Below are positions 11,914-34,210 of a DNA stretch of 64,000 nt, piece after piece (positions within the stretch are counted from its first letter, which is position 1; each line of letters opens with the position of its first letter). The position numbers and the translations under genes were made by a program. The stretch lies in NCBI GenBank assembly GCA_030429455.1, contig JAUIFC010000001.1, forward strand, positions 1 through 64,000. Direction: 5' to 3'. The notes under the pieces were generated by a model. It searched no databases, was not told the DNA's origin, and worked only from the letters and a program-made list of their open reading frames with translations. Source of the stretch: Bacteroidia bacterium (GTDB taxonomy: Bacteria; Bacteroidota; Bacteroidia; Flavobacteriales; Flavobacteriaceae).

Positions 11914-12798
11914 TTGAATACTAAAATTGATTTTATTGGAATTGGAGCCCAGAAAGCGGGTACAACTTGGTTGTTTAAACAATTTGAAAAATCTAATCAG
12001 ATACAACTTCCACCAGTCAAGGAGCTTCACTATTTTGACCGTTCTTCAACTTACTTATCTCCTAATATTCTCGAAGAAACCTTGTTAAAAGATAGGATGA
12101 AAAACCCAAAATGGGTACTTAGGTCTATATTTGAAATCTTAAAAAATGCAAAAGATTTTGGTTGGTTTAAGAAATGGTATTTTTCAGACTATAGTGACAA
12201 GTGGTATTTGTCTCTTTTCAAAGGATATTCTAAGTGCAAAGGTGAAATTACACCAGCCTATGCTATTCTTAGAGAAGAAGATATTTCCGAAATGAGTAAA
12301 CTATTAGGTGAAGACACAAAAATTATATTTATGCTACGTAACCCTATTGACAGGGCATGGTCTAGCTATAAATATAAATACAACATAACTGAATATGACA
12401 AAGGCGATTATGAAGACGCAAAAAGATTTTTTGTATCAGATTATCAGGTGTTTAGGTCGGAGTATTTAAAAACAATTCAACTGTATAAAAAGTACTTTAA
12501 CTCGATTTGTTTAGCATTTTTCGATGCTATAACGGAAAATCCAAAAGATCTTTTGTTTGATATTTTTAATTATTTAAACTTAGATACCAAAGAGATAGAT
12601 TCCTTTTCTGGATTACAGAAAAGGATAAATACATCAAGGACCATTGAGATTCCAGATCGTATTTATAATTTTTTGACCGATATGTATCAAGAACAAATCA
12701 AGGAATTATCAATTGAGTATGGAGAATATTTTAGAACTTGGCAAATCCAAAATAATATTGGATACATTTCTCCTAAACCAACAATTATTTTAAAGTAA
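11914..12798 (+). CDS. Sulfotransferase-family protein B
   Basis: This 294-residue protein of the Sulfotransfer_1 type starts at TTG. The PAPS loop is GIGAQKAGTTWLF (residues 8-20), followed by the typical KELHYFD segment. The 3'-phosphate motif MLRNPIDRAWSSYKY lies near residues 139-153. This pattern is that of heparan-sulfate-type and related carbohydrate O/N-sulfotransferases. The stop overlaps the next start by one base (TAATG), so the two are likely translated together. Confidence 0.85.
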   Translation: MNTKIDFIGIGAQKAGTTWLFKQFEKSNQIQLPPVKELHYFDRSSTYLSPNILEETLLKDRMKNPKWVLRSIFEILKNAKDFGWFKKWYFSDYSDKWYLSLFKGYSKCKGEITPAYAILREEDISEMSKLLGEDTKIIFMLRNPIDRAWSSYKYKYNITEYDKGDYEDAKRFFVSDYQVFRSEYLKTIQLYKKYFNSICLAFFDAITENPKDLLFDIFNYLNLDTKEIDSFSGLQKRINTSRTIEIPDRIYNFLTDMYQEQIKELSIEYGEYFRTWQIQNNIGYISPKPTIILK

Positions 12799-13874
12799 TG
12801 AAACTTTATTTTCATATAGGTACAGAAAAAACAGGGAGTTCATTTTTACAATCATACCTAGCACGTAATAGAACCATTTTAGAAAAGCACGCAATATGTT
12901 ATCCTCACGCCGGAGTTCATGAGGCAAACGTACAAAAAGGAATCATTACGCCTGGTAATGCCGAAGATTTGCAAAGAAGTATAGATGCTTTGGAATGGCC
13001 AAAGGTGAAAGAGTGGTTAGCTCAAAAAAAGAAAGAAGCTCAAAAAAAACAATGCGATACGTTATTGATATCTAACGAAATATTGGTACTAAGTTTTTCT
13101 AAAGAAGGGGTTTTAGCAAAAGTGATTGACATTTTAGAGGCCTTAGAGATTTCTTGTGAAGGCTTGTTGCTGATTATCAGAGAGCCTGTAAGCCAAGCAC
13201 TATCACTTTATAAGCATAGGACAAAAAGTGGGACATTCACTCCAATTCAAGAGTGGTTGGAAAATCAGTATTTTATTGCAGGTGGATTAAAGGATTTTTA
13301 TACAGAACTGTCAAAAACGAATATAAAGCTAAGCCAGTTTGAATATAAAAAAGACAGTGAATATTTGGTAAATGTTTGCATAAATGATTGGTTAGGGCTT
13401 AATGAAGATATTAAAATTGAACAGCAAAAAAGTGTAAACCCCTCTTTGTCTTTGTCAGAATTGGTTTTGCTTTGTGAAATATTTCAGAATGATGAAATTT
13501 TGGCAAAAAAGTTTTATCAATTTATGATTAGGATAGATGTTAAAGATAAGTCCGATGATAAGTATCTTAAAGGCTATGTAAAAAACCATATTAATAACTA
13601 TATGGTTAAGCATAATGAACTATGGAATATAGTTAATCAAAAAATGAGTACAACCAAGAGCAATTTTAATTATAAACCATGTAAAGTGACTTCTGAGGAA
13701 AAAATAACCAGTTTCTCAACACATCAAATTAAAACCATTTCAAAATTTATAGAATATTCTAAAAGTAAAAGTTTTAGGAAACATAAAATCAAGTACAAAA
13801 CAATTGTTTTCATAGGTAAAAACACCCCAAAGTTTATATACAAGTTAAGAAAGAAACTATTGTATAGAACCTAA
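12798..13874 (+). CDS. Sulfotransferase-like protein C
   Basis: This 358-residue protein begins MKLYFHIGTEKTGSSFLQSY, giving a PAPS-type loop at residues 6-18. IIREPVSQALSLYKHR near residue 130 is the 3'-phosphate strand with Arg and Ser. Sequence between and after the motifs differs from proteins A and B, and the basic C-terminal region is longer than usual. It is coupled to sulfotransferase B by a one-base overlap and precedes the asparagine-synthase gene. A PAPS-dependent glycan sulfotransferase is the best reading. Confidence 0.72.
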   Translation: MKLYFHIGTEKTGSSFLQSYLARNRTILEKHAICYPHAGVHEANVQKGIITPGNAEDLQRSIDALEWPKVKEWLAQKKKEAQKKQCDTLLISNEILVLSFSKEGVLAKVIDILEALEISCEGLLLIIREPVSQALSLYKHRTKSGTFTPIQEWLENQYFIAGGLKDFYTELSKTNIKLSQFEYKKDSEYLVNVCINDWLGLNEDIKIEQQKSVNPSLSLSELVLLCEIFQNDEILAKKFYQFMIRIDVKDKSDDKYLKGYVKNHINNYMVKHNELWNIVNQKMSTTKSNFNYKPCKVTSEEKITSFSTHQIKTISKFIEYSKSKSFRKHKIKYKTIVFIGKNTPKFIYKLRKKLLYRT

Positions 13875-15804: not shown

Positions 15805-17130
15805 ATGTCTTTATTAAAGGAAAAGTTTAAATATAATTTAATACTTTATTTTCTCTCTCCTATTTTAGGTTTGTTCTATGGTCTCAAATCTGGAAATTAT
15901 AAGTACATTCGTTGGAGTATTTTTGTCTTTACTATTTTTTATGGTTCCCTTTTGACTTTTAACCTATTAGGTGGTGCATTGGGAAGCGACGCAGGGTCTG
16001 ATGGTGCAAGGCACTGGAATAGTGTTTATGAACATTATCAATATTTGGACATTGGAGTATGGTGGAATGAATTAAAATCTATATTAGCCTTTAGCCCTAA
16101 AAGTACTACAAAAGATGACCCTTTTATACATTTTTTGTCCTTTTTTGTTGGTGGTATATTACGTATGCCAGGTCTTTTTTGGGTTGTTCTATCTATAGTG
16201 TATGGGTATTTTTCTTCTGGAGTAATAGTTAAAATTTTACAACGGATAAATTGGAAAACTGGACACAATAAATTTTACTTTGCTTTTTTTCTATTTATAT
16301 TTCTTTTGTCATTTTCACCCTTAAATATGCAAACTGTAAGAACATGGACGGGAATGTGGGTGCTGGTATATGCTGTATTGTCCTATGAAGAGACTAAAAA
16401 AAAGAAGTATTTATTTCTTGCTTTAGCTCCTGTAACGATACATGTAGGTTATTTTGCATTAGGAATAGGTATTTGGTTCGTCTTATTTACAGGCATAAGA
16501 AATCTTAGATTTTTGTTTTTTGGTTTTGTGGCTTCCATATTTTTATCTACCGCGATTGACTTTCTTGGTTTGGATCAGGTTATAGCACAAACGCCTCTTG
16601 GATCTAGTAAGTTAGATGCTTATTATGTTGATGATAAAAAAGCAGAAAACTTTGAAACAAGATTACAAGAATCTGAAACCAATTTTTACAAACGCTATGA
16701 AGAATACAAAATACAAAAGTATGTGTTTTCTGCTATGTTACTTTTTTTATATTTTGTTTTTAGCAAAAGAAGTTTAAGTCATTTTCAAAAGACCTTACTG
16801 TCATATGCTTTAGCTATGGCAATTGTTTCAAACTTATTTACACTATTGTATGCTGTGCACAATAGAGGTTGGATCATTGCATCTTTTTTTATTTTTTCAT
16901 TAATGCTTATTATACTTTCAAATAGAACACTTCCGAAAAGAAAATTGGGCTTTTTGATATATCAATTGCCTTTGTTTTTGATTACAGTGACTATTATTCC
17001 ATATATGTTGTTTGTGTTATCTAGATTTATCAATTTCACCTCTGGGTATATTTTAATAACACCTTTTTTTAGTTGGTTTGATGGCGATTTGAGTTTTAGC
17101 TTAAAAGATATTTTGGTCGTCTTTTTCTAA
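15805..17130 (+). CDS. EpsG/Wzy-like polysaccharide polymerase
   Basis: This 441-residue integral membrane protein has roughly ten hydrophobic helices. The first follows a short basic stretch, and a large hydrophilic loop lies near residues 265-310. The segment NMQTVRTWTGMWVLVYA followed by YLFLALAPVTIHVGY is typical of the EpsG family, which polymerises lipid-linked repeat units in the Wzx/Wzy pathway at the outer face of the inner membrane. It is the only polymerase candidate in the window, against two flippases and two initiating transferases. Assignment is by topology and motif. Confidence 0.75.
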   Translation: MSLLKEKFKYNLILYFLSPILGLFYGLKSGNYKYIRWSIFVFTIFYGSLLTFNLLGGALGSDAGSDGARHWNSVYEHYQYLDIGVWWNELKSILAFSPKSTTKDDPFIHFLSFFVGGILRMPGLFWVVLSIVYGYFSSGVIVKILQRINWKTGHNKFYFAFFLFIFLLSFSPLNMQTVRTWTGMWVLVYAVLSYEETKKKKYLFLALAPVTIHVGYFALGIGIWFVLFTGIRNLRFLFFGFVASIFLSTAIDFLGLDQVIAQTPLGSSKLDAYYVDDKKAENFETRLQESETNFYKRYEEYKIQKYVFSAMLLFLYFVFSKRSLSHFQKTLLSYALAMAIVSNLFTLLYAVHNRGWIIASFFIFSLMLIILSNRTLPKRKLGFLIYQLPLFLITVTIIPYMLFVLSRFINFTSGYILITPFFSWFDGDLSFSLKDILVVFF

Positions 17131-17139
17131 TTATTTATA

Positions 17140-18321
17140 ATGATTTATAAAATATTAATAGTTCTTGTACCAGCATTTGATCCAAATAATGGTGGAGTAC
17201 AGCGTTCCACATATAAAATGTCAAGCTATTTTAAAAGTAGTGGTCATAACACTTATATATATTCATATTACAATTCGGGTCATGCTGAACAAAATGTAGC
17301 AGAATTACACTTTGCAAAACAACCAGACGAGCACAAGAACGAGAATAATAATGCACAACTATCGGCTTTAATTCTTGAGATTAAACCCGATATAGTAATT
17401 AATCAAATGCCGTATGAGCATGAAATTGGTCATACACTAAAGAGTACTCAAAAGCGACACCATTTTTTGTCTATCAGTTGTTTGCGAAACACACTTTACA
17501 GTGTAAAGCTTAACTTAGACAGTTATTTACAATCAATTATACCAAAAAGTATTCAGCCAATTTTTAATAATCAGATAGGTAAATTTATTCTATTACAAGG
17601 GCATCGGCAAAAGCACAAAAAGGACCTTAAGCTTATACTAGATTGTTATGATTATTTTGTCATGTTTGGCCCTCCAAACATCAAAGAGTTAAAGTATTTT
17701 GTGGGTAATTACAAGCTAAATAAAACGCACCTTATACCGAATTCGATTTTAAGCGTTTTACCAACATTACCAACCAAAGAAAAACGAATTCTTTGGTTAA
17801 GTAGATTGAGTTATGGGCAAAAACGGGCAGATCTTATTTTGCCCTTTTGGAAAATAGTTTTACAAAAATTACCGGATTGGCAATTAGATGTTGTTGGAGG
17901 AGGAGATGCATTTTCGGATATAAAACAGCAAATCGAAGAGGAGAATATTCAAAGGGTTAATCTATATGGACAACAAGTCCCTTATGAGTATTACAAACGT
18001 GCTCCTATCTACATTATGACGTCAAAGAATGAAGGTTTTCCAAACACACTAATAGAAGCTCAGTCCTTCGGATGTGTGCCAGTAGTTTATGATAGTTATC
18101 CTATATGCTCATGGGTAGTGAAAGAGGGTAAAAGCGGTATACTTATTCCACCATTTAACGTTAACAAAATGGCAGAAGAAGTCATCAACATTGCTAAAGA
18201 TGAGCATAGAAGAGAATTACTTATGCGAGCCGCTTTGGACAATGCAAACGAATTTTTGTTAGATAATGTTGGTAAAAAATGGATTGAATTTTTTGATAGA
18301 GAATTGATGACAAAGGATTAA
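17140..18321 (+). CDS. GT4-family glycosyltransferase
   Basis: This 393-residue protein has the GT-B fold. The N-terminal domain opens with a glycine-rich loop (NNGGVQRSTYKMSSYF). The C-terminal nucleotide-binding domain has ILWLSRLSYGQKRADL and MTSKNEGFPNTLIEAQSFGCVPV, the E-x7-E signature of retaining GT4 enzymes. It acts in the cytoplasm on lipid-linked intermediates. Donor and linkage cannot be read from sequence. It starts 9 bp after the polymerase and is followed by a 457-bp gap, so it may end a transcript segment. Confidence 0.87.
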   Translation: MIYKILIVLVPAFDPNNGGVQRSTYKMSSYFKSSGHNTYIYSYYNSGHAEQNVAELHFAKQPDEHKNENNNAQLSALILEIKPDIVINQMPYEHEIGHTLKSTQKRHHFLSISCLRNTLYSVKLNLDSYLQSIIPKSIQPIFNNQIGKFILLQGHRQKHKKDLKLILDCYDYFVMFGPPNIKELKYFVGNYKLNKTHLIPNSILSVLPTLPTKEKRILWLSRLSYGQKRADLILPFWKIVLQKLPDWQLDVVGGGDAFSDIKQQIEEENIQRVNLYGQQVPYEYYKRAPIYIMTSKNEGFPNTLIEAQSFGCVPVVYDSYPICSWVVKEGKSGILIPPFNVNKMAEEVINIAKDEHRRELLMRAALDNANEFLLDNVGKKWIEFFDRELMTKD

Positions 18322-19725: not shown

Positions 19726-20868
19726 TTGATTGTGCGCGATTGGATTAAAAATGGTATAAACAACTATATAAATTACAAATCTTTTAAGACAAATAAAAAA
19801 TATGTCATTATTGAATCTGATGATTGGGGAAGTTTAAGAACTAAAGACAGTAAGGCAAGAGATGCATTGAACGCTTTGCATCCAAACATAAAAAATGACC
19901 CATTCACTCAATATGACAGTATTGCATCTTGTGCAGATTTACAAGCCTTATTTGAAGTTTTAAATTCGGTAAAAGACAGAAAGGATAATCCAGCTTGTAT
20001 AACAGCAAATGTATGTACCGCAAATCCACACTTTAAAAAAATTTCAGACAATAATTTCGAAGATTTTTACTTTGAGCCTTTTACAAAAACACTTGAAGGC
20101 TATTCAAAGGACAAAAGTATTTTTGAAGTTTGGAATGAGGGTATTAAAAGTAAACTATTTTACCCACAATTACATGGAAGAGAACATCTACATGCATTGG
20201 CATGGCTCAAAGAGTTACAGGCAGGTCAAAAATCCTTGTTAAAGGCTTTTCATTATGAAACTTGGAGTATTCCATATACTTCAATAACAAATAACCAAAG
20301 AAGAAAAAATCTACAAGCGGCTTTAGACCATTATCAACTAGATAACGAAATAAAATTTCAGGAAAAATGGATAAATGACGCGAGCCAAATATTTAAAGAC
20401 GAATTTGGGTTTACGTCAAAAACATTTATTCCACCAACTTATAAATGGCATTCAAATTTAAATTCAGTTTTTCAGATTAACGGTATAGAAGCTTTACAAG
20501 GAATCAAACTTCAATATCAACCCAGTGTAAAACATAAATCTGGCTATAATAGAAAATTGCATTACACAGGACAAGTTGATAAGGGTTCTAATCTTTTGTA
20601 CCTTACAAGAAATGTGTTTTTTGAACCTTCTTTGCAACAAAATAAAGATTGGTATTCCTTAACGCTTAATGGCGTAAAAGAAGCTTTCAAAAAATCTCAA
20701 CCAGCAATTATAGGAAGTCACAGGATAAATTTCGTCGGACGCTTAGATGAAAATCGAAGAGATAACAACCTTAAGGTATTAAGGTCTATTTTAAAACAAA
20801 TTACAAAACTCTATCCAGACGTTGAGTTTGTAAACAGTTCGGATCTAACAACTATAATTAAGAAATGA
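19726..20868 (+). CDS. DDWG/HGREH-family protein 1, divergent polysaccharide deacetylase-like
   Basis: This 380-residue protein is the first of four paralogues in the window (others at 28667, 31047, 45036). Shared landmarks are ESDDWGS (Asp32-Asp33), HGREH (residues 150-154), a PPTYKWH segment, RNVFFEPS, SHRINFVG and a C-terminal YPDVEF. The order Asp-Asp, H-x3-H, Pro-rich loop, late SH mirrors the metal and catalytic motifs of NodB/CE4 deacetylases, so I infer a divergent deacetylase fold. The start is TTG, with GTG at 19732 as the alternative. It overlaps the next gene, a sulfotransferase, by 4 nt (ATGA). Confidence 0.65.
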   Translation: MIVRDWIKNGINNYINYKSFKTNKKYVIIESDDWGSLRTKDSKARDALNALHPNIKNDPFTQYDSIASCADLQALFEVLNSVKDRKDNPACITANVCTANPHFKKISDNNFEDFYFEPFTKTLEGYSKDKSIFEVWNEGIKSKLFYPQLHGREHLHALAWLKELQAGQKSLLKAFHYETWSIPYTSITNNQRRKNLQAALDHYQLDNEIKFQEKWINDASQIFKDEFGFTSKTFIPPTYKWHSNLNSVFQINGIEALQGIKLQYQPSVKHKSGYNRKLHYTGQVDKGSNLLYLTRNVFFEPSLQQNKDWYSLTLNGVKEAFKKSQPAIIGSHRINFVGRLDENRRDNNLKVLRSILKQITKLYPDVEFVNSSDLTTIIKK

Positions 20869-21698
20869 ATTTACCAAATTTCCTAATCATAGGAGCTCAG
20901 AAATCTGGCACTACCAGTTTGCACGATATTTTGGATGCTCATCCTCAGGCATTGATGTCAAAGCCTAAAGAAGTTAATTTTTTTACTTTCGACTATAAAT
21001 TAAATAAAGGATTAGAATATTATAGCACATTTTTCCAAAATAATGAAATATCGAACCCAATAGCCATTGGAGAATCAAGTCCAGGATATATCTGTTATCC
21101 AGATATTCATGAAAAAATATACCAGCATTTAGGAAATATTAAAATTGTAATGATTTTAAGAAATCCTATAAAAAGAGCTTTTTCTCAATACTGGGATAAT
21201 AGAAGACAACTCAAAGAAGAATGTAACGAAGAAGAAATAATAGAAAAGTATTTGGAAGCGGATTACCAGCCTGGCAGAAAGGGATACTTCAGCAGAGGAG
21301 TGTATTATAATGATGTAAAAAAATATATCGACTTATTCGGCAGAGAAAATGTGCATATCATTATTTTTGAAAAACTTTTAAAACATCAAAAAGATGAATT
21401 GCTAAGGCTTTATTCATTTTTAGGTTTAGATATCGACAAAGGACTACAAGAATTACCAAAGGCATCGAATTCTTCCTCTATTTTTAATAATCGATTTTAT
21501 TGTTATTTTTTCAACAATCCGAAACATACACAATTTCTTCCTAAAAAGTTTAGAAAACTATTATTTTTCGGTAAGAAAGTAGAATATAAGTATAAGCAAG
21601 TAAACACTGAACATTTAGAAAAATTGAAAACATTTTATGCACAATGGAATGAAAAACTTGAAACTCTTATTGATTTTGAAATACCAGAATGGAAATAA
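20865..21698 (+). CDS. Sulfotransferase-family protein E (heparan-sulfotransferase-like)
   Basis: This 277-residue protein shows the clearest Sulfotransfer_1 layout of the window: PAPS loop IIGAQKSGTTSLHDIL (residues 7-22), KEVNFFTFD with the following KGLEYYSTFF, GESSPGYICYP, and ILRNPIKRAFSQYWDN as the 3'-phosphate strand. This is the pattern of heparan-sulfate N-sulfo- and 3-O-sulfotransferases. Its start overlaps the stop of the deacetylase-like gene by 4 nt, so the two proteins are probably made in step. That suggests, without proving, sequential N-deacetylation and N-sulfation. Confidence 0.88.
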   Translation: MNLPNFLIIGAQKSGTTSLHDILDAHPQALMSKPKEVNFFTFDYKLNKGLEYYSTFFQNNEISNPIAIGESSPGYICYPDIHEKIYQHLGNIKIVMILRNPIKRAFSQYWDNRRQLKEECNEEEIIEKYLEADYQPGRKGYFSRGVYYNDVKKYIDLFGRENVHIIIFEKLLKHQKDELLRLYSFLGLDIDKGLQELPKASNSSSIFNNRFYCYFFNNPKHTQFLPKKFRKLLFFGKKVEYKYKQVNTEHLEKLKTFYAQWNEKLETLIDFEIPEWK

Positions 21699-21701
21699 AT
21701 T

Positions 21702-22439
21702 ATGAAGAAATTTTTTTACAAATTCATCCATATTTATCTCGCAAAAAAAAGAACGCTAATTTTAAGCTTTATCGCAAGAAATTATTACCGGTTTATATTT
21801 AATCCCTTAATAATTAGGGAGAATACTTCGGATATAAAAGTATTTCGAAGTATATTTATTTTAAAGGAGTTTGATCTTCCAATAGATATAAAACCAAAAC
21901 TAATTGTAGATGCAGGGGCATATACAGGTTTGTCAGCCCTTTTTTTTTCGAGAAAATACCCAAATGCAAAAATAATTGCAGTCGAACCAGAAGACTCTAA
22001 TTTTGAAATTTTGAAACAGAATACAAGTCAATTCAAAAATGTAGAACTCGTAAAATCTGGGTTATGGTCAAAGAATGCCTATCTAAAAGTAATCGACAAT
22101 AATCTTGGAAAGTGGGCTTTTTCATTAAAAGAAGTTGACAGCACATCGAACTACGACCTTCAAGCCACAACTGTCGACGACATACTTAAGAATAGTCCAT
22201 TCGACCGAATAGATATTCTTAAAATAGATATTGAAGGCGCAGAAAAAGAAATATTTAAAGACAATTATAATTCTTGGCTAGAAAAAGTAAATATAATTTT
22301 CATCGAGTTGCATGATAGGTATTTAGAAGGTTGTTCGGAAGCAGTATACAATGCCATAGATTTAAATCTTTGGAATGAGTACAAAAAAGGAGAGAAGGTA
22401 ATTTTTATAAGAAAAAACATTAAAGATTTATCTGAATAG
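21702..22439 (+). CDS. FkbM-family methyltransferase
   Basis: This 245-residue SAM-dependent methyltransferase has motif I VDAGAYTGLSALFF, followed by IIAVEPEDSNFEIL with the acidic residue that holds the ribose of SAM. IDILKIDIEGAEKEIF is the FkbM signature. Members O-methylate sugars or related hydroxyls. The N-terminal 60 residues are basic and hydrophobic and may sit near the membrane. It starts 3 bp after the sulfotransferase stop and is followed 3 bp later by a glycosyltransferase, so it belongs to the same operon. The methylated position is unknown. Confidence 0.87.
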   Translation: MKKFFYKFIHIYLAKKRTLILSFIARNYYRFIFNPLIIRENTSDIKVFRSIFILKEFDLPIDIKPKLIVDAGAYTGLSALFFSRKYPNAKIIAVEPEDSNFEILKQNTSQFKNVELVKSGLWSKNAYLKVIDNNLGKWAFSLKEVDSTSNYDLQATTVDDILKNSPFDRIDILKIDIEGAEKEIFKDNYNSWLEKVNIIFIELHDRYLEGCSEAVYNAIDLNLWNEYKKGEKVIFIRKNIKDLSE

Positions 22440-22442: not shown

Positions 22443-23450
22443 ATGTCAAATCCTCGGCCAATAAAATCTATTGTTTTTCCGCATAGACCTGGAACAGGTG
22501 GTCCAGGAAGTTTTCAGAAGCGCTTCGAAATAAAACTCAAAGAAAACGGTTGGAGGATAGAATATGCCAAAGAGAACACATCAAAACCAGACATAATTTT
22601 TGTAATTGGTGGTACCAGAAAAGTCTTTTGGCTATTGAAAATGAAAATAAAAGGAGTGCCAATTATCTATAGATTGGATGGCATAAATTGGCTGCACACA
22701 AAAAAGAAAGTTTCTTTTGGTTATTACTTAAATAAAACATTAGCAAATAGCATAAGCAAATTTATTCATGCTTTCCTTGCGAATAGGATTATCTATCAAA
22801 GTACATTCGTACAAGAATGGTGGAACAGAAGTGGTTGGAAAAAGGCAAAAAATGCTGTTATCATTCATAACGGTGTTACAATCCCAAAAGTAGAGGATAT
22901 TGTTAATGCTGTAAAACAAAGGAAAACCAATAGACTTGTTGTTTTAGAAGGGACTATAGATTATACGCCATATGCCATCAAGTTATTAAACGACTTGGCA
23001 AAAAGTTTGCCTGAAGATATTCAAATTGAGATTTACGGAAAATTTGAAAATAATTCAGTACAAGGAAAGCTTCATAATCGGTTGAAATACAAAGGCTTTC
23101 TAGAGCATAAAAATGTTTATCAAGTATTTCAAGGGGCGGTATATTTATCATTAGACATTCATCCTGCGTGTCCTAATACAGTAGCCGAGGCTCTTGCTTG
23201 TGGTAATCCAGTAGTAGCCTTCAATACTGGTGCATTGTCCGAACTTGTGGATGCATCTTGCGGGAAAATTGTAGACTACGGGTCAAATCCTTGGAATTTA
23301 GGATATCCAGATGTAAAAAGTCTTAGCCGTGCTATAGTTGAGGTATTTGAGAATTACAATTCATTTTCAAAGAATGCCTATGCAAAAGCGAAAAGCGATT
23401 TCGATTTAACCCACATGTTTCAAAAATACCTAGATGTTTTTACAAATTAA
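22443..23450 (+). CDS. GT4-family glycosyltransferase
   Basis: This 335-residue GT-B protein has a short N-terminal domain beginning with HRPGTGGPGSFQKRFE, a glycine-rich acceptor loop, then PIIYRLDGINWLH. The C-terminal domain has the retaining GT4 signature HPACPNTVAEALACGNPVVA. It resembles compact GT4 enzymes from capsular loci. It sits in a tight run after the FkbM methyltransferase. Donor and acceptor are unknown. Confidence 0.85.
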   Translation: MSNPRPIKSIVFPHRPGTGGPGSFQKRFEIKLKENGWRIEYAKENTSKPDIIFVIGGTRKVFWLLKMKIKGVPIIYRLDGINWLHTKKKVSFGYYLNKTLANSISKFIHAFLANRIIYQSTFVQEWWNRSGWKKAKNAVIIHNGVTIPKVEDIVNAVKQRKTNRLVVLEGTIDYTPYAIKLLNDLAKSLPEDIQIEIYGKFENNSVQGKLHNRLKYKGFLEHKNVYQVFQGAVYLSLDIHPACPNTVAEALACGNPVVAFNTGALSELVDASCGKIVDYGSNPWNLGYPDVKSLSRAIVEVFENYNSFSKNAYAKAKSDFDLTHMFQKYLDVFTN

Positions 23451-23499: not shown

Positions 23500-24651
23500 A
23501 TGAAAATAGTTAGGGTATATCCATATTTTCAAGTTGATTTGCAATATTCTGAGCATTATCTCGCTACAGCGCTTAATAAGTTGGGGCATACAACAACCTT
23601 TATTAGCTCTAATAAATATACAAGTCTTTTTAAAAGATATATCACAAACGAAGACCCCGAAGGTTACTACAAGTACAAACGTTTTGATTTACATCGATTA
23701 AAATCTTTATTACTTCTAGATAAGCCTGTTTTGATACAATTGCGAAAATTATCTAAGTTGCTATTTAATTCGGATGTTCATATTATCCATTTATATGGAG
23801 TAGCCACCTTTACCACGGCAACAACATTATGGCTGCATTTTTTGGCAGGAAGTAAAATTCCAATTTTAATTAGTGACCACTCAGATTCTAGATCTCACAA
23901 AAGGGAGGGTTTTTTAGCCTATTTAAACTATCAATTTTTTACCTTGAATCTACATTTGTTTTTTAGACGAATTAATAAGATTATTTCATTTAGCCAATCT
24001 AGTGTAGACCTAATTTCCAAGAGGCACAAGATACCTCATGAAAAAATGGAAGTAATCAAATTGGGATATGATCAGGATAATTATAGATTTCGACCAGACC
24101 TTAAAAACAAATCAACTAAAATGATTATTGGGTATGCTGGGAAAGTGACACCATTAAAACGTTTGGATTTTTTAATCAATACTGTTGACAAGTTAGAAAT
24201 AAGTTCGCAAATTAAAATAATCATTGTTGGCTATAATGAAAGTGATCCGTACTGCAAATCGCTTAAAGAGTTGGCAAAAAATGTAAATTTCGAAGTTGAG
24301 TTTAGACCATTTGCCTCGAGTAAAGAGTTGGTTGAGTTTTATAATTTTATAGATATTGCAGTTTATCCAGGAGGCGTCTCAATCACAACTATAGAGGCAA
24401 GTGGATGCGGTACACCTGTAATTGTTTACAAATCTATACCTAACCTCCAAGAAAGAGTTAGCCATAACAGAGGTTTACTGTTTGATAGCGAAGAGGAATT
24501 AGTAGAAGGTATAAAGTATTATTTTAATCAACAAAAAATAGGTGCAATAGAAAATGAGTACATTGCAAGCAAAACAAAAGAATTGTTTTCTTGGGAAATC
24601 GTTTCTAAAGACTATTTAAATTTATACAATAGTGCATTAAATGGGAAATAG
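23500..24651 (+). CDS. GT4-family glycosyltransferase
   Basis: This 383-residue GT-B protein begins MKIVRVYPYFQVDLQYSEHY, has a donor domain with IGYAGKVTPLKRLDFLI, and carries AVYPGGVSITTIEASGCGTPVI as its E-x7-E-like region. The first glutamate of the usual pair is Ser/Thr-rich here, which makes the signature looser than in neighbouring GT4 proteins. It overlaps the following oxidoreductase gene by 11 nt, which links it to the diaminouronate-type set and hints that it may use that sugar. That link is inference. Confidence 0.8.
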   Translation: MKIVRVYPYFQVDLQYSEHYLATALNKLGHTTTFISSNKYTSLFKRYITNEDPEGYYKYKRFDLHRLKSLLLLDKPVLIQLRKLSKLLFNSDVHIIHLYGVATFTTATTLWLHFLAGSKIPILISDHSDSRSHKREGFLAYLNYQFFTLNLHLFFRRINKIISFSQSSVDLISKRHKIPHEKMEVIKLGYDQDNYRFRPDLKNKSTKMIIGYAGKVTPLKRLDFLINTVDKLEISSQIKIIIVGYNESDPYCKSLKELAKNVNFEVEFRPFASSKELVEFYNFIDIAVYPGGVSITTIEASGCGTPVIVYKSIPNLQERVSHNRGLLFDSEEELVEGIKYYFNQQKIGAIENEYIASKTKELFSWEIVSKDYLNLYNSALNGK

Positions 24652-25654
24652 AGTAAAGTTTGCAATAGTTGGCTGCGGAAGAATAGCTCATAGACATGCC
24701 GAACACATTTCAAATTATGGAGTATTAACCTCGGTTTGCGATGTCATACAGCATAGAGCTGAGACTCTTGCAAATCAATATTCGGCAAAAGTATTTCATA
24801 CAATAGAAGATTTATTAATAAACGATAAAGAAGCCGATGTCATATCCATATGCACACCAAATGGCCTTCATGCAGAACATACTATTTTGGCTCTAAACGC
24901 TGGTTTTCATGTTTTATGCGAGAAACCTATGGCTATTGATGTTTATGATTGCGGTACAATGATTCAAGCCGCAGAAAAGAATAACAGACGGTTATTTGTT
25001 ATTAAGCAAAATAGATTTAACCCACCTGTTGCTGCTGTCAAAAAAGCCATCGATGAGGGCAGATTTGGTAAGATATACAGCATCCAGCTCAATTGTTTTT
25101 GGAATAGAAACGAAGATTATTACAACAATTCTTGGAAAGGAACTAAAGAAATGGATGGCGGTACACTTTTTACTCAGTTTAGTCATTTTATAGATTTACT
25201 CTATTGGTTAGTTGGAGATGTGAAAAAGGCAAAAGCTTACACCGCCAATTTTCATCATAAGGGCATCATAGAATTTGAAGATACTGGTGTTGTTGCTTTA
25301 GAGTTTTACAATGGTGCAATTGGAGCCATAAATTATACAGTAAACAGTTATGGTGGTAATATGGAAGGATCTTTAACAATTTTTGGAGAAAAAGGGACAG
25401 TAAAAATTGGAGGTCAGTATCTAAATGAGCTCGAATATCAGAACATTAAAGACTTTACAATCGAGAATCTACCGGAAGGAAACAAAGCAAACAATTATGG
25501 CTACTACCAAGGTTCCATGTCCAACCATGACCTTGTCTATAAAAATGTTATCGATGTTCTTCAAAATAGTGCGTCAATTCTGACCAATTCTTTTGAAGGA
25601 TTAAAAACGGTTGAAATAATTGACAAAATCTACCAATCCGCCCAAAATAACTAA
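24641..25654 (+). CDS. WbpB/WlbA-like UDP-aminouronate oxidase (Gfo/Idh family)
   Basis: This 337-residue protein has the Rossmann motif IVGCGRIAHRHAEHI and the Gfo/Idh catalytic motif EKPMAID with its lysine. IKQNRFNPPV and GGTLFTQFSHFIDLL match WbpB/WlbA, which oxidise the C3 hydroxyl of UDP-GlcNAc-uronate. The next two genes are an acetyltransferase and an aminotransferase, the same trio that makes UDP-2,3-diacetamido-2,3-dideoxyuronates in Pseudomonas and Bordetella. The UDP-GlcNAc 6-dehydrogenase that would feed it is not in the window. Confidence 0.83.
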   Translation: MGNRVKFAIVGCGRIAHRHAEHISNYGVLTSVCDVIQHRAETLANQYSAKVFHTIEDLLINDKEADVISICTPNGLHAEHTILALNAGFHVLCEKPMAIDVYDCGTMIQAAEKNNRRLFVIKQNRFNPPVAAVKKAIDEGRFGKIYSIQLNCFWNRNEDYYNNSWKGTKEMDGGTLFTQFSHFIDLLYWLVGDVKKAKAYTANFHHKGIIEFEDTGVVALEFYNGAIGAINYTVNSYGGNMEGSLTIFGEKGTVKIGGQYLNELEYQNIKDFTIENLPEGNKANNYGYYQGSMSNHDLVYKNVIDVLQNSASILTNSFEGLKTVEIIDKIYQSAQNN

Positions 25655-26115
25655 TGAATAGTAAACCAAAAGTGTATAAAAGTAAGGTTGTGAACATCAA
25701 ACATGGCTCAGGCTTTACCTATGTAGAACCTGTAAACCTATACGGATGCGAATTTGGACAAAATGTGTTTGTAGGACCATTTGTCGAAATTCAAACCAAT
25801 GTAAAAATTGGCAATAACACAAGAATCCAATCTCATACATTTATTTGCGAATTAGTAACAATAGGGAATAATTGCTTTATAGGACACGGTGTAATGTTTA
25901 TAAATGATTTGTTTTCGAAAGGAGGTCCTGCGCAAGGCGATCAGTCTTTATGGAAAAAAACAGAAATTGGAAACAATGTTAGTGTTGGAAGCAATGCTAC
26001 CATACTGCCTGTTACTATTTGTAACGATGTAGTCATAGGAGCAGGTTCAGTTGTGACCAAAGATATTACAGAACAAGGAGTGTATGCTGGAAATCCAGCA
26101 CGAAAAATTAGATAA
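25654..26115 (+). CDS. WbpD/WlbB-like sugar N-acetyltransferase
   Basis: This 153-residue left-handed beta-helix protein is made of hexapeptide repeats (GCEFGQNVFVGPF, VKIGNNTRIQSH, VTIGNNCFIGHGV) with the conserved histidine-containing turn GHGVMFIND and the C-terminal signature GVYAGNPAR. WbpD/WlbB acetylate the 3-amino group of UDP-GlcNAc3N-uronate using acetyl-CoA. Length fits that subfamily. Its start overlaps the upstream stop by one base, and the aminotransferase starts 8 bp later. The product is probably UDP-2,3-diacetamido-uronate. Confidence 0.82.
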   Translation: MNSKPKVYKSKVVNIKHGSGFTYVEPVNLYGCEFGQNVFVGPFVEIQTNVKIGNNTRIQSHTFICELVTIGNNCFIGHGVMFINDLFSKGGPAQGDQSLWKKTEIGNNVSVGSNATILPVTICNDVVIGAGSVVTKDITEQGVYAGNPARKIR

Positions 26116-26122
26116 TAATAGC

Positions 26123-27226
26123 ATGCGAGTACCATTTGTGGATTTAAAAGCTCAATACCAAGACATAAAAGACGAAATAGATTCCAATATTCAAAGAATT
26201 ATTTCTCATACAGCGTTTATTGGTGGAAAAGAGGTTGAGGATTTTTCCATTAATTTTCAGGCTAAATATGGTGTAAAACATTGTATACCAGTTGGAAACG
26301 GAACAGATTCTCTTTTTATAATTATGAAAATGCTTGGTATAGGACATGGCGATGAAGTTATTACGCCAGCCAACAGTTGGATTTCGTCCTCAGAAACGAT
26401 AACACAAACCGGTGCAACTCCTGTTTTTGCAGACATCGAAGAACATTATTTCACCATCTCTCCCGTCAAAATTGAAGAATTAATTACAGAAAAAACCAAA
26501 GCGATAATGCCTGTCCATCTTTATGGCCAAATGTGTGACATGGATAAAATTAACCATATAGCTCAAAAGTATAATTTGTTTATCATCGAGGATTGCGCAC
26601 AATCTCATTTTTCGAAGTATAACGGCAAAAATGCTGGTCTTTTTGGCAATGCTGGTTCTTTTAGCTTTTATCCAGGTAAAAATCTAGGTGCTTATGGAGA
26701 TGCAGGCGCTATAATTACCAATAATGATGAACTTGCACAAAAATGTAAAATGTATGCTCGGCATGGCGCTTTAAAAAAACATGAACATAAAATTGAAGGA
26801 ATAAATTCAAGACTGGATGGAATTCAAGCTGCAGTTTTGAATGTAAAATTGAATTATATTACACAATGGACTAACCAAAGGATTGCAAATGCTTCGTTAT
26901 ATAATAAATATTTAAGCGATATTCCAGAAGTTGTTATACCAAAAGTGAGAGAGAATACTGAGCATACATTCCATCTTTATGTTATAAGAGCAAAAAGAAG
27001 GAATGAGCTTTCCATTTTTTTAAAAGAAAACGGAATTCAAACAGTACTTCATTATCCAAAAATACTTCCAAATCTCGAGGCATATTCCTATTTAAACAAT
27101 AGAGATGATTTTGAAATAGCGAACAGCTACGAAAGTCAGATATTGTCATTGCCAATGTATCCAGAATTAAATGAAAAGCAAATTGAATTTGTTTCTGAAA
27201 GGATAAGAGATTTTTACAAAAAGTAA
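26123..27226 (+). CDS. WbpE/WlbC-like DegT-family PLP aminotransferase
   Basis: I chose the ATG at 26123 because MRVPFVDLKAQY is the family's standard beginning; a frame-open extension to 26084 would overlap the previous gene by 32 nt with unrelated residues. The 367-residue protein has IEDCAQSHFSKYNG and FSFYPGKNLGAYGDAG, where the lysine forms the PLP Schiff base. WbpE/WlbC transfer an amino group to the C3 ketone made by WbpB. Its neighbours support this role. It could also serve the FdtA-type 3-keto sugar, but that gene is 18 kb away. Confidence 0.85.
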   Translation: MRVPFVDLKAQYQDIKDEIDSNIQRIISHTAFIGGKEVEDFSINFQAKYGVKHCIPVGNGTDSLFIIMKMLGIGHGDEVITPANSWISSSETITQTGATPVFADIEEHYFTISPVKIEELITEKTKAIMPVHLYGQMCDMDKINHIAQKYNLFIIEDCAQSHFSKYNGKNAGLFGNAGSFSFYPGKNLGAYGDAGAIITNNDELAQKCKMYARHGALKKHEHKIEGINSRLDGIQAAVLNVKLNYITQWTNQRIANASLYNKYLSDIPEVVIPKVRENTEHTFHLYVIRAKRRNELSIFLKENGIQTVLHYPKILPNLEAYSYLNNRDDFEIANSYESQILSLPMYPELNEKQIEFVSERIRDFYKK

Positions 27227-27266: not shown

Positions 27267-28670
27267 TTGAAACAAAATATAATTTTAGAATTAGATTCGT
27301 TTTATATTGATCGAGTTGTACAATGGTTTAAAAATGATGAAACACACAGGGGTTATAACATTTATGTCCTAACCAAAAACTCAAAACACAACAGGTTTGT
27401 CACGGCCTTGTCTTCCTATAGTCATGTGACCTGCTTGACCTATGATGATTTGTTTTCATACACTACTAAGACTAAACTGGATATAGATAAATACCATCAA
27501 TTTAACAAATATTTTTTCAATAATCATCTGACAGCTAGGTTTTTAGACAGGTCAGGATACTATCCAGAGTACGGCATTGGAGTACAAAATGCGTTTACCA
27601 ATTATGCTTTTGCAGCTCACAATCTTTTGCTCTTTCTTATCGATAAAAAAATTGATTTTATCAGTTTTAGAAACACGCCACATAATATGGTGGAATGGTT
27701 GCTTTTAAGCACGGTAGAATTTTTGAATTTAGATGTTTACACCTTTGAAGATTTTATTTTTCCTTGGTTATTTACTATTAAAAAAGGCTGCCTAGGAGAT
27801 ACTGAACTACTTTTTGAAGATATTGAGCTAAATGATAAAGATGAAATTAGAAATCATATAAAAAAGTGTATAAAAATAAATTCTGGGAATTACGAAAACG
27901 CTATCCCATTATATGAAAAAAGCAGAAGAGGTAAGGGTGTGTTTAAGCACTTTAATCCTTTCTTAAATTTAAGATCTTCAATCTTAAAACCTCACCAGAT
28001 CATTAACAAGACGCGGAATTATTTTTACTACAAGAAATGGAGTAAAAAGCATAAACTTGATGATTTAAAGTACATGGTATTTTTTATGCATTTTCAACCA
28101 GAAAGATCCACATTACCAGAGGCTTATGATTTTGTGGATCAGTTTTATACCATCAAAATTTTGAGTATGATGTTGCCGGAAAATGTAAAATTGTTGGTAA
28201 AAGAACACCCCTCAATGTTTACCAAAATATCAGAACCAAAAGCTAGAAACCCTTATAACTACAAGCTAATCAAAGACCTTACTAATGTCGAATTTGTATC
28301 CATGGATATGGACAGTTTTAGTTTGATAGACAATGCTTTGGCTGTTATTTCCTCAAAAGGTACTGTAAGTTTGGAAGCTTACATGAGACATAAGCCCGTC
28401 ATTATGTTTGGGAAAACTAATTTGAAATTACCAGGAGTTTACAATTTTGAAAGTATTGATGGTTTACAAGAACATATTAATAAAATAATTTCAGACCAAA
28501 TAAAGGTTGATAATACATTGCATCACCTCACAGAAGCTTGTTACAAAGTAGCATCTTCGGGACTAACAAAATCTCCTGAAGAAATGGAAAATTACAGTTT
28601 TACAAGAGACAATAGAGAAAATGCGACCTATGTTTTGTTATCTAAACTTTTGAAACACAAGTTAAAATGA
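27267..28670 (+). CDS. KpsS/LipB-like capsule polysaccharide glycosyltransferase
   Basis: This 467-residue protein starts at TTG. The C-terminal half has MFFMHFQPERST-like and LLVKEHPSMF segments, then SFSLIDNALAVISSKGTVSLEAYMRHKPVIMFG. These match the capsule_synth (KpsS/KpsC-type) GT-B fold, in which the HP and SxG-x-EA segments bind the nucleotide sugar. Some members add Kdo linkers and others are ordinary polymer glycosyltransferases. There is no other sign of a Kps system in the window, so a side role in glycan assembly is more likely. It overlaps the next gene by 4 nt. Confidence 0.65.
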   Translation: MKQNIILELDSFYIDRVVQWFKNDETHRGYNIYVLTKNSKHNRFVTALSSYSHVTCLTYDDLFSYTTKTKLDIDKYHQFNKYFFNNHLTARFLDRSGYYPEYGIGVQNAFTNYAFAAHNLLLFLIDKKIDFISFRNTPHNMVEWLLLSTVEFLNLDVYTFEDFIFPWLFTIKKGCLGDTELLFEDIELNDKDEIRNHIKKCIKINSGNYENAIPLYEKSRRGKGVFKHFNPFLNLRSSILKPHQIINKTRNYFYYKKWSKKHKLDDLKYMVFFMHFQPERSTLPEAYDFVDQFYTIKILSMMLPENVKLLVKEHPSMFTKISEPKARNPYNYKLIKDLTNVEFVSMDMDSFSLIDNALAVISSKGTVSLEAYMRHKPVIMFGKTNLKLPGVYNFESIDGLQEHINKIISDQIKVDNTLHHLTEACYKVASSGLTKSPEEMENYSFTRDNRENATYVLLSKLLKHKLK

Positions 28671-29776
28671 AAGTAAGCAATCTGTTAGGATGGAAAACGT
28701 CTAGAAAAATCATTGTTTTCGAAAGTGATGATTGGGGCAGTTTTAGATTTCAGAACAAAACAATTCGAGATGCATACCTGCCTAATTATGACCCTAAGGG
28801 TTGGATGCATTACAACGATTGCTTTGAGTCTATTGAAGATTTAACGGCTTTAGAATCCACATTAAAATCTGTTAAGGACAAAAATAGCAATTACGCCTGT
28901 TTTACATTTTTGATGAATCCTGCCAATCCAGATTTTAAAAAGATTAAACAATCACACTGTCAAGAGTTTTATAACGAAACATTTCTAGATACCCTTTCAA
29001 AACGAAAAGATGGAGATGATATATTAAATTGGTATAAGACTGCTCTAAAGAATACTTTAATCGAAATAGGTTTTCACGGAAGAGAACATCTTAATGTAAA
29101 TTCTTGGATGAAAGATTTGCGCGTAAAAGATGAAATTACGATTAAAGGTTTTGAAGACAATGTATGGGGACATAATATTATATTGTCCAAAAAAGAGAAA
29201 AAAAGACATCGATCAACTTATAATTTCACGTCATACAGCGAAATTGAAGACCTTAAGTTAAATATTAAAGAAGGCATCCAGTTATTAAATGAAACCTTTA
29301 ATCAAAGGACAACTTATTTCCTGCCGCCTGATGGCCCTTATCATTTAGATTTAAATCAAAGTTTAGCAGATAATGGAATTAAATACATAGGACTTTCAAA
29401 AAAACATAAAAATCCATTAGATGAAAAATGGCATCAAACAAAGATTTTTTGGTTGGGCAAAAAGACAAAAGAAGGATTAAGAGTGGTGACAAGAAATGTA
29501 ATTTTCGAGCCGAGCTCACCCCGACAAAAGGATTGGTTAAAGTATGCCTTAGAAAATATAAGTTTAGCGTTTAATAATAATAAACCAGCTGTAATTAGCT
29601 CACATCGAGCAAACTATTCTGGAAGCCTAAATGAACAAAATAGAAGCAATAGCAATCAACAGCTCAAATCCCTATTAGAAAATATAATAGAAAAATGGCC
29701 TGATGTTGAGTTTATGACTTCTTCTCAGTTAGGAGAATTAATTGCCAAAGGCAAAAAATCCATTCTCAACAAATGA
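28667..29776 (+). CDS. DDWG/HGREH-family protein 2, divergent polysaccharide deacetylase-like
   Basis: This 369-residue paralogue of the protein at 19726 keeps ESDDWGS near residue 20, GFHGREH near 140, YFLPPDGPYH, RNVIFEPSS, SSHRANYSG and PDVEFM. It is coupled on both sides by ATGA overlaps, to the KpsS-like gene upstream and a GT4 gene downstream. That fits acting on a specific sugar soon after it is added. The deacetylase reading rests on the order of Asp-Asp and H-x3-H motifs as in CE4 enzymes and not on a match I can compute. No signal peptide is visible, so action is likely cytoplasmic. Confidence 0.63.
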   Translation: MKVSNLLGWKTSRKIIVFESDDWGSFRFQNKTIRDAYLPNYDPKGWMHYNDCFESIEDLTALESTLKSVKDKNSNYACFTFLMNPANPDFKKIKQSHCQEFYNETFLDTLSKRKDGDDILNWYKTALKNTLIEIGFHGREHLNVNSWMKDLRVKDEITIKGFEDNVWGHNIILSKKEKKRHRSTYNFTSYSEIEDLKLNIKEGIQLLNETFNQRTTYFLPPDGPYHLDLNQSLADNGIKYIGLSKKHKNPLDEKWHQTKIFWLGKKTKEGLRVVTRNVIFEPSSPRQKDWLKYALENISLAFNNNKPAVISSHRANYSGSLNEQNRSNSNQQLKSLLENIIEKWPDVEFMTSSQLGELIAKGKKSILNK

Positions 29777-31046: not shown

Positions 31047-32174
31047 ATGATTGCTGCGTTAAAAAACAATATTTTAAACACAATAAGCTGGAAAACAAAC
31101 AGAAAAATTGTGGTTTTTGAAAGTGATGATTGGGGAAGTATTCGTATGTCGTCAAAAGAATCCTACCAAAAGCTACTTGACAAAGGGTATCCTGTCGATT
31201 ATTGCGCATACAGCAGTAATGATGCACTAGAAAGCAATGAAGATGTTCATTATTTGGCTGAGGTACTATTGGAAGTGAAAGACAAAAATGGCAATCCTGC
31301 ATGTATCACATTAAATATGTTATCTGCCAATCCAGACTATGATAAAATTAAGCAGAATAATTTTCAAGAGTATTATTGGGAACCATTTGCCAAGACACTT
31401 AGCGACTATCCAAGTCATCATAATGTCATGCAACTTTATAAAGAAGGCGTAAGGTCTAAAGTCTTTAGACCACAACTTCATGGCAGAGAACATATTAATG
31501 TTAGCAGATGGTTCGATGCGCTTCAAAAAGGAGAACAAAGAAGTTTAGATGCATTCGAAAATAGAACTATTTCTTTGCCAAAAGTAAAAAAGACAAATGG
31601 GCGGAAGGACTTTATGGATAGCTTTGGATTACAAGTAGAAACAAGTTCAGATAGTTATGAACAAATATTACTTGATGCAGCTGATGTATTCAACAAAACT
31701 TGGGGATTTTCGTCCTCTACATTTATGGCACCATGTTATACATGGCATCCTGAATTAGAACACCACTTGAAAGATGTAGGTGTGGAAGCACTTCAAGGAA
31801 CATATGTTCAAAGAATTCCTGACGAAACCAAAAAAATAAAAGTGAGAAGAAAATACCACTTTATGGGCCAAAAAAATAAATTGCAACAACGCTATTTAAT
31901 CCGAAATGTGTTTTTTGAACCAACAGAATTCAAAAGTAATTTTAACATTGAAGATACATTAAGGGATATACAAAAAGCCTTTAAATTTAGAACTCCAGCA
32001 ATTATCCAGACACATAGGTTAAATTACATCGGTTTTATAAATCAAGAAAATAGGGATACTAATCTTAAGGGGTTACAAAATCTACTCCAACAAATCGTAA
32101 AGCTTTATCCAGATGTAGAGTTTATGAGTTCTGACCAATTAGTGGATATAATGAATGGTAGAAATGGAAAATAA
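31047..32174 (+). CDS. DDWG/HGREH-family protein 3, divergent polysaccharide deacetylase-like
   Basis: This 375-residue paralogue is closest by eye to the protein at 19726. Both share ESDDWGS, PQLHGREH, the WHPELE/WHSNLN segment after a Pro-containing loop, EALQG, RNVFFEP and THRLNYIG/SHRINFVG. Here SHR is THR, which keeps the histidine. It ends with YPDVEFMSSDQL as the others do. The following GT4 start overlaps its 3' end by 20 nt. The four-copy pattern within one locus suggests separate acceptors. Confidence 0.63.
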   Translation: MIAALKNNILNTISWKTNRKIVVFESDDWGSIRMSSKESYQKLLDKGYPVDYCAYSSNDALESNEDVHYLAEVLLEVKDKNGNPACITLNMLSANPDYDKIKQNNFQEYYWEPFAKTLSDYPSHHNVMQLYKEGVRSKVFRPQLHGREHINVSRWFDALQKGEQRSLDAFENRTISLPKVKKTNGRKDFMDSFGLQVETSSDSYEQILLDAADVFNKTWGFSSSTFMAPCYTWHPELEHHLKDVGVEALQGTYVQRIPDETKKIKVRRKYHFMGQKNKLQQRYLIRNVFFEPTEFKSNFNIEDTLRDIQKAFKFRTPAIIQTHRLNYIGFINQENRDTNLKGLQNLLQQIVKLYPDVEFMSSDQLVDIMNGRNGK

Positions 32175-33324: not shown

Positions 33325-34210
33325 TTTTGAGGTTTTATACATCGCTGGAAATGGTCATTCAGGTTCAACGTTATTAGATATTATTTTGGGATCAATAAAT
33401 CCAAAAGAAAATTTTAGCGCTGGAGAATTAACTTTCGTTACTCGAGAGTCCATTTTTGAAGAAATATGTTCATGCCAAAATACAATTAAATCTTGTGAGG
33501 TATGGTCTAGAGTTTACGCGGAGTGGGAAGAAAGAAGAACAATTTCATTTAATCAGTATAGACAATTGAATCATAAATTTGATAGAAATATTAATTTTTT
33601 ATTAGTCTTAAAGAATATGCTATTTCCTTCAAAACAATATAAAGCTTATGTAGAGAATACTGGGCTACTTTTTTATTCTATTCATTTAGTAACAGGAAAA
33701 TCGACTATTGTAGATTCTTCAAAAACAGCTTTAAGGATACCTGTATTGTCTAAATTTTGTAATGTAAAAGTTATACATATCTGTAGGGATTTTTCTGGGG
33801 TTCTAAATTCAGCAAAAAGAAACTATAAGAAAGATATAGCTCAAGGATATGAAGTTGACTTGAAGCCAAGAAAAACATCAAAAACATTTTTAGACTGGAT
33901 ATTAAATAATGTTTTAGTAGTGTTGTTTTCTATTGGGCAAGAAAGGATTAAACTGTATTACAAAAATTATGTAAGTGATCTAAATTGTTTATCAAGAATT
34001 ATAGATGTTTCTCGAATCAAGAAACCAAGTTTTAAAATAAAACCAGAACATGTACTAGCAGGAAATGTTATTAGACTCAAAGAAGAGTTAAAATTAAATG
34101 CAACTATTGGGTTTCGCTACAAGAGATTGTCAAAAAAACAATTATTATTTTCAAGAATTATAGATAAGTTATTTTTTTTCTGGTCTGGCAGCTTTATACC
34201 TAATGCATGA
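33305..34210 (+). CDS. Sulfotransferase-family protein F (cysteine-containing type)
   Basis: This 301-residue protein has the PAPS loop GNGHSGSTLLDIILGS (residues 14-29) and a Cys-rich element, CSCQNTIKSCEVW, typical of a sulfotransferase subgroup with CSCG-x(n)-C-x-FW. ICRDFSGVLNSAKR near residue 160 carries the Arg and Ser of the 3'-phosphate site. This subgroup is distinct from proteins A-E, so the sulfotransferases here are not recent copies of one gene. It overlaps the GT4 gene by 20 nt, suggesting that sulfation follows that transfer. Confidence 0.8.
   Translation: MSKRKYNFEVLYIAGNGHSGSTLLDIILGSINPKENFSAGELTFVTRESIFEEICSCQNTIKSCEVWSRVYAEWEERRTISFNQYRQLNHKFDRNINFLLVLKNMLFPSKQYKAYVENTGLLFYSIHLVTGKSTIVDSSKTALRIPVLSKFCNVKVIHICRDFSGVLNSAKRNYKKDIAQGYEVDLKPRKTSKTFLDWILNNVLVVLFSIGQERIKLYYKNYVSDLNCLSRIIDVSRIKKPSFKIKPEHVLAGNVIRLKEELKLNATIGFRYKRLSKKQLLFSRIIDKLFFFWSGSFIPNA

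Follow-up and report, generated by a model that had tools for sequence, protein, structure and literature searches.

A predicted deacetylase gene beside a heparan-type sulfotransferase gene: a recurring pair in a bacterial polysaccharide locus

Can a bacterium divide between two neighboring genes what NDST, the enzyme of animal heparan sulfate, does as one protein? The question is raised by two overlapping genes in a 64,000-nucleotide stretch of DNA from a Bacteroidia bacterium (hereafter the window), which forms part of contig G000:C198 in a 4.1-Mb genome that is 86% complete. The pair had been proposed as a possible split NDST: a deacetylase-like gene translationally coupled to a heparan-type sulfotransferase gene. 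The first gene (19726-20868, plus strand) has a TTG start, with an alternative GTG start at 19732, and encodes 380 aa; its product belongs to the DDWG family and is a predicted CE4-like N-deacetylase. The second gene (20865-21698, plus strand) encodes 277 aa, matches PF00685 (Sulfotransfer_1) at E 1.7e-20, and is a predicted PAPS-type sulfotransferase of the heparan 3-OST/NDST fold group. The stop of one and the start of the other share the bases ATGA (20865-20868, plus strand), and the two genes with their 4-base overlap are thus as described. Genes of the window are named below by their first coordinate.

Neither the overlap nor the adjacency carries much weight. Overlaps occur in 15 of the 45 adjacent same-strand pairs in the window and measure exactly 4 bases in 6 of the 45, so translational coupling loses its standing as a special sign. 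The window also holds four DDWG paralogues (19726, 28667, 31047, and 45036), the other three being 31-41% identical to 19726, together with seven sulfotransferase-like genes, counted by phmmer at E 1e-6 from 15 seed genes chosen by eye. Four of the seven (11914, 18779, 20865, and 39404) pass the Pfam sulfotransferase cut-off, 10950 falls under it, and neither 12798 nor 33305 matches any sulfotransferase model in Pfam at the limits used. With four and seven genes to pair, adjacency alone is weak evidence: when the 46 plus-strand genes of the locus are shuffled, at least one DDWG gene is directly followed by a sulfotransferase-like gene in 50% of shuffles, or in 31% when only the four genes above the Pfam cut-off are counted. 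Adjacency and overlap by themselves were therefore dismissed as evidence of linkage. Such frequencies fit a view of the two genes as independent neighbors, where each enzyme would modify different residues of one polymer and the two would stay together only through inheritance of the whole cluster.

Two other genomes carry the same pair, and this recurrence is what goes beyond chance adjacency. When 84,980 species genomes were scanned with two short peptide patterns, 376 DDWG relatives were found, and the neighborhoods of the best 80 of these 376, which make up 79 distinct loci, were compared; further pairs are possible. Together with the window, and with identical proteins counted once, these neighborhoods contain 142 different DDWG genes, 138 of them outside the window. 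The pair is found in locus L005 (Bacteroidetes MAG RI_132), where the DDWG protein and the sulfotransferase are 49% and 50% identical to those of the window, and in locus L015 (Flavobacterium sp. MFBS3-15), where the values are 40% and 53%. A third adjacency, in locus L077 (a Mangrovimonas contig), involves a sulfotransferase-like gene of an unrelated kind that lies under the Pfam cut-off.

The recurring linkage expected by the original prediction is thus seen for this specific pair and not for the two families at large. Among the 130 DDWG genes outside the window that have a readable downstream gene, the next gene is another DDWG (36), a GT4 glycosyltransferase (29), a CapA-like gene (16), an Asn-synthase-like gene (8), a sulfotransferase-like gene (3), or something else (38); this spread of neighbors, with few sulfotransferases, favors independent neighbors. 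Sulfotransferase-like genes are present in 6 of 78 DDWG loci, and the three adjacencies compare with 1.29 expected by shuffling across the 78 loci, a value reached in 12% of shuffles; the two families are therefore not generally linked. Locus L065 was left out of the shuffles and of the run counts given below as the mirror of L064: the two loci are both ends of the 26-kb contig BNTV01000068.1, mirror images of equal length and match position, which suggests either an extensive inverted repeat or an artefact of assembly.

The sulfotransferase side gives the same picture. No CE4-like or DDWG-like ORF was found in any of 20 regions around sulfotransferase relatives, mostly high-scoring relatives from genomes of the order, one of them from the window's own genome, and some regions stop at a contig edge near the sulfotransferase; ORFs were called crudely and searched by phmmer with a single CE4 seed and by an HMM built on four DDWG proteins, a combination that PIG-L types and other remote deacetylases would escape. 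On these 20 regions and the 3 of 130 downstream neighbors, general linkage was ruled out. Counting the window's own genome in each case, 119 of 395 genomes of the order have a match to the sulfotransferase at E 1e-10, and 2 of 149 genomes in the family have DDWG genes. Beyond the window's genome, L005, and L015, the 395 genomes of the order hold no close relative of the sulfotransferase (the next best among the matches listed scores 122 bits at 37% identity), and no further one appears at a limit of E 1e-36 in 299 genomes from the genus to which L015 belongs, 298 from the order of L005, or 395 from the phylum, sets that may overlap. Plasmids carry no DDWG gene and only distant sulfotransferases (best 28%). 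The window's own genome encodes another relative of the sulfotransferase (G000:C145:14559-15152, 37% identity); the 10.7 kb around it contain neither a CE4-like nor a DDWG-like ORF.

How has the pair fared within its surroundings? A wider module is common to the window, L005, and L015, as inheritance of a whole cluster by independent neighbors would have it. It includes an EpsG/Wzy-like polymerase gene (15805-17130, plus strand; PF14897 at E 5.5e-7, just below the cut-off), with relatives in L005 (32%) and L015 (27%); a GT4 glycosyltransferase gene (17140-18321, plus strand; PF00534), 39% identical to L005:7503 and 37% to L015:5874; a second GT4 gene (22443-23450, plus strand; Pfam GT4), 48% identical to L005:11913 and 53% to L015:11960; and a sulfotransferase-like gene recognized by its N-terminal motif (12798-13874, plus strand), with relatives of 32-41% identity in the modules of L005, L015, and L077. 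Within this module, the order of the Wzy-like and glycosyltransferase genes is swapped, and L015 has an extra DDWG gene and a hexapeptide acetyltransferase-like gene. In the window, a gene for an FkbM-type methyltransferase (21702-22439, plus strand; PF05050 at E 1.7e-16) is inserted between the pair and 22443; it is matched in none of the eight loci compared, including L005 and L015, where relatives of 22443 come directly after the pair. The DDWG gene and the sulfotransferase gene keep both adjacency and order in all three genomes. With DDWG paralogues set aside, the Wzy-like gene and its glycosyltransferase are also still adjacent in all three, in swapped order, and make a second such neighboring pair in the window. 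That the pair stayed put while the genes around it swapped or gained insertions argues against independent neighbors.

The phylogeny of the DDWG proteins argues in the same direction. Proteins shorter than 340 aa were dropped for the trees and the residue counts, which kept 139 of 142; the careful tree holds 53 of these 139 rows, chosen by hand, and the groups tested were named after neighborhoods had been seen and a quick tree inspected. The DDWG proteins of the window and L005 group at 100/100; L008_9974 joins them next at 97/86, and L015 follows at 95/74 in the free tree. In the genome of L008_9974, the sulfotransferase finds no match at E 1e-10. A single clade of the three paired DDWG proteins is not rejected (AU p 0.254), whereas a clade that also takes in L014_5766 and L049_9968, which share the downstream glycosyltransferase and are without the sulfotransferase, is rejected (AU p 0.000275). 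Because the grouping by glycosyltransferase is rejected and the paired clade is not, the predicted deacetylase type tracks the sulfotransferase and not the common glycosyltransferase, as judged from the sequences of three genomes. Rejection of the glycosyltransferase-tracking tree again speaks against independent neighbors, a reading we consider rather improbable. A recurring cassette of DDWG gene and sulfotransferase gene is supported by sequence, by predicted fold, and by the two further genomes that have it. Three points weigh against the reading preferred below, in which the pair decorates a polysaccharide: it is known from three genomes only, L008_9974 falls inside the paired clade, and adjacency over the 78 loci is not enriched.

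The activity of the first protein is approached best through its predicted structure. The AlphaFold model of 19726 has a mean pLDDT of 95.6. Aligned with VIA-align, CE4-type deacetylases match it at Z up to 19.8 (3rxz), and many deacetylases exceed 14; of the top five structural matches, four carry deacetylase names, mostly as putative ones. The deacetylase part of NDST1 aligns at Z 15.3-17.8, with 8ccy at 3.3 A over 244 residues, and Agd3 at Z 17.2. From the model, we are confident in predicting a CE4/NodB-type barrel fold. Residues D32, D33, H150, H154, and H332 are each invariant in 139 of 139 DDWG proteins. CE4/NodB-type deacetylases, CE18 Agd3, and ArnD share with the DDWG family both the fold and this metal-site residue pattern, which we take to be that of the CE4 motifs. 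In the portion consulted of a study of NDST1, D320, H389, and H393 are the metal ligands, and D319 and H529 the likely base and acid (PMC10864358). All five are present in the DDWG family in the same order, a correspondence by motif order and fold rather than by measured superposition. The description of the first gene as deacetylase-like therefore holds, in terms of a CE4-type predicted fold and the NDST1 catalytic residue set.

Unlike CE4/NodB-type deacetylases, the six DDWG proteins scanned reach the cut-off of no Pfam deacetylase model; Polysacc_deac_1 gives no match or one below its cut-off in these six (20.0 against 23.1 bits for 28667), and 19726 matches DUF2334 below the cut-off at E 0.0067. 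Matches of the DDWG profile to PDB sequences were designed proteins only and were taken as chance. The family might instead belong elsewhere in the barrel superfamily, perhaps as a GH57-like glycosidase or transferase or as an ArnD-like deformylase: 28667 exceeds the Pfam GH57 cut-off, if weakly (E 4.4e-5), and the structural neighbors of the 19726 model include an allantoinase (Z 18.6), GH57 enzymes (up to 17.2), and ArnD (16.4). The invariance in all 139 proteins of the metal-dependent deacetylase set (D-D, H-x3-H, and a final H) and the four named deacetylases among the five best structural matches make this very unlikely.

The second protein poses the central problem: does it place sulfate on nitrogen or on oxygen? 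The claim that it lies nearest in the window to NDST and 3-OST is correct among the two PF00685 genes compared, 20865 and 11914, the latter of which drew no match among the heparan enzymes of the PDB at E 0.01. Its model (pLDDT 92.6) is nearer in fold to 3-OST and NDST than to SULT, TPST, and others. The closest solved structure is 3rnl, a bacterial sulfotransferase from Alicyclobacillus acidocaldarius (E 3.1e-26, Z 25.8), followed by 3-OSTs (Z 24.1-24.9) and NDST1 (22.1-23.7), with the next match at 15.0. A comparison with NDST and 3-OST structures thus places the protein in their common fold group, with 3-OST slightly ahead and the two nearly level. The best animal matches by sequence and structure alike are 3-OST-1, -3, and -5. 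By sequence, 3-OST5 scores E 8.4e-17 (64.7 bits) against E 2.2e-8 (37.1 bits) for NDST, and a profile built from seven sequences, of which four are unpaired, gives 112.6 bits for 3-OST against 81.4 for NDST. The flavobacterial relative L094 scores below 20865 on both (best 3-OST 34.6 bits, NDST 31.3 bits).

Residues around the active site add detail. Our sulfotransferase alignment (A4) includes two genes, one from L052 and one from L060, twice each; K13 occurs in 39 of its 39 rows and E36 in 36 of 39, with Asp in the other three. We take K13 to be the lysine of the PAPS loop and E36 the catalytic glutamate, and this conserved base of 20865 aligns with E642 of NDST. The catalytic stretch reads KE(V/I)NFF(T/S) in the three paired sulfotransferases, EEIQFFN in NDST1, and EVHFFD or EIHFFD in the 3-OSTs compared. 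Two residues past the base there is thus Asn in the paired enzymes, Gln in NDST1, and His in 3-OST; the His and Asp of the 3-OST ExHFFD stretch, which have a functional role, are Asn and Thr or Ser in the three paired genes. By sequence, an amide at this position resembles NDST more than 3-OST and does not decide between nitrogen and oxygen. The same Asn is found in four unpaired bacterial relatives, or in 7 of the 39 rows in all.

Could the pair nevertheless be a bacterial two-gene equivalent of NDST, in which the DDWG protein would deacetylate a HexNAc residue and the sulfotransferase would sulfate the freed amine? Both catalytic folds of NDST1 are predicted side by side, the five deacetylase residues are matched and invariant, the sulfotransferase base is conserved and followed at two residues by Asn rather than the His of 3-OST, and the deacetylase clade tracks the sulfotransferase. 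N-sulfated bacterial exopolymers have also been reported, as far as the portion consulted of the source describes them: those of two Pontiella strains are 75% and 80% N-sulfated by nitrous acid assay (PMC7356697). Sequence, profile, and structure scores are all better for 3-OST than for NDST, however, and the Asn also occurs in unpaired relatives. Natural fusions, proposed as a check, did not turn up: none is seen among the 142 DDWG genes, the longest ORF of which is 418 aa, and among the sulfotransferase matches listed, open frames span 218 to 347 aa. NDST differs further in being one polypeptide, where there are here two ORFs with apparently cytosolic products; the deacetylase part shows no sequence relation to it in the PDB search, and the three DDWG proteins scanned show no match to the NDST N-terminal Pfam model. 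What remains of the proposed split NDST is a deacetylase fold and residue set beside a heparan-type sulfotransferase, recurring in two other genomes; fusion, general family linkage, and specificity for nitrogen found no support, and we regard this two-gene NDST as a possible but doubtful reading. The better 3-OST score favors O-sulfation, which is also the default expectation because such sulfotransferases usually come without a recognizable neighboring deacetylase (0 of 20 regions).

The setting suggests what the pair may act on. A polysaccharide locus spans about 0.8 to 50 kb of the window, several of its components matching under curated cut-offs, and includes, besides the Wzy-like and GT4 genes named above, a gene for a Wzx-like flippase (3851) and a polyprenyl glycosylphosphotransferase-like gene (47160). 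Neither protein of the pair has a signal-like or membrane segment in a simple hydropathy scan, and no strongly hydrophobic N-terminal stretch was found in any of 139 DDWG proteins; both proteins look cytosolic from their sequences. Given the Wzx- and Wzy-like genes of the locus, the pair would most simply act at the cytosolic face, on a lipid-linked repeat unit. ArnD provides a precedent for a lipid-linked sugar substrate. An APS kinase, which PAPS synthesis requires, is encoded in the genome, as in 11 of 14 control genomes, a common gene; a supply of PAPS to the predicted sulfotransferase is therefore plausible.

Our preferred reading, which we give an even chance, is that the pair forms a decorating cassette of a sulfated surface polysaccharide of the Wzx/Wzy type, with deacetylation and sulfation of one repeat unit. 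The DDWG protein would be a metal-dependent deacetylase of the CE4 type that works in the cytosol and, before the lipid-linked repeat unit is exported, takes the N-acetyl group off one of its amino sugars. The adjacent heparan-type sulfotransferase would use PAPS to sulfate the same unit, and the most probable site is a hydroxyl of the deacetylated sugar or one next to it. We infer the deacetylase reaction, the cytosolic lipid-linked substrate, the use of PAPS, and O-sulfation; O-sulfation of that repeat unit is a safer reading than a split NDST.

Known systems place these possibilities in context. The Pontiella exopolymers offer a parallel in that a sulfotransferase lies in a polysaccharide cluster, and a difference in that the portion consulted of that report names no gene for N-deacetylation; its authors state there that glycosaminoglycan sulfotransferases are not known from prokaryotes (PMC7356697). 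An artificial ND-ST fusion of a deacetylase with an N-sulfotransferase domain, described in 2026, yields N-sulfated heparosan and, according to the portion consulted, is an engineered fusion rather than a natural bacterial pair; the same source describes the difficulty of expressing functional NDST in prokaryotes as a major bottleneck in making heparin (PMC13353177). Titles and abstract openings of the open-licence papers listed showed no natural bacterial pair of deacetylase and N-sulfotransferase. A small, apparently soluble, and naturally paired predicted deacetylase and heparan-type sulfotransferase is therefore a candidate for the N-deacetylation step and for the NDST bottleneck. Were the doubtful two-gene NDST to prove true, Bacteroidota would have evolved N-sulfated amino-sugar polymers through a two-gene system of their own. 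Even if the sulfate sits on oxygen, DDWG emerges as a deacetylase-like family of polysaccharide loci in several phyla, fully conserved in its catalytic residues across the 139 proteins compared and without a Pfam model of its own above cut-off in the six scanned.

The DDWG family occurs in several phyla, and its genes are often clustered. Its genes come from Bacteroidota and from records labelled Chlorobiota, Ignavibacteriota, Planctomycetota, Myxococcota, and Bacillota; in loci L005-L083 they form 104 runs, of which 36 are tandem pairs and 40 come directly after a Wzy-like gene. Within the window, the second paralogue (28667-29776, plus strand) has a 4-base overlap with a GT4 gene, and the fourth (45036-46184, plus strand) is a DDYG variant. 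The third (31047-32174, plus strand) is followed by the GT4 gene 32155 and then by the sulfotransferase-like gene 33305, three consecutive genes (31047-34210) that make, with L077, a second association of DDWG and sulfotransferase. In L077 (9965-12012), a DDWG gene is directly followed by a relative of 33305 (49%) and then by a relative of 32155 (56%); the two DDWG proteins are 37% identical and lie apart in the tree, and 33305 differs in kind from 20865.

Two further regions of the window deserve mention. Overlapping ORFs at 39404-39784 and 39772-40257, of which only the first matches Pfam, are apparently one Sulfotransfer_2-type gene that has been split, possibly by a frameshift; it precedes a CE4 deacetylase gene, 40317, nearest to an XrtA-system model and under that model's cut-off, so that in this region (39404-41225), too, a sulfotransferase adjoins a deacetylase. 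A few genes downstream of the pair, genes for a Gfo/Idh oxidoreductase, a hexapeptide acetyltransferase, and a DegT aminotransferase stand in a row (24641-27226) that, in our estimation, resembles pathways to diacetamido sugars.
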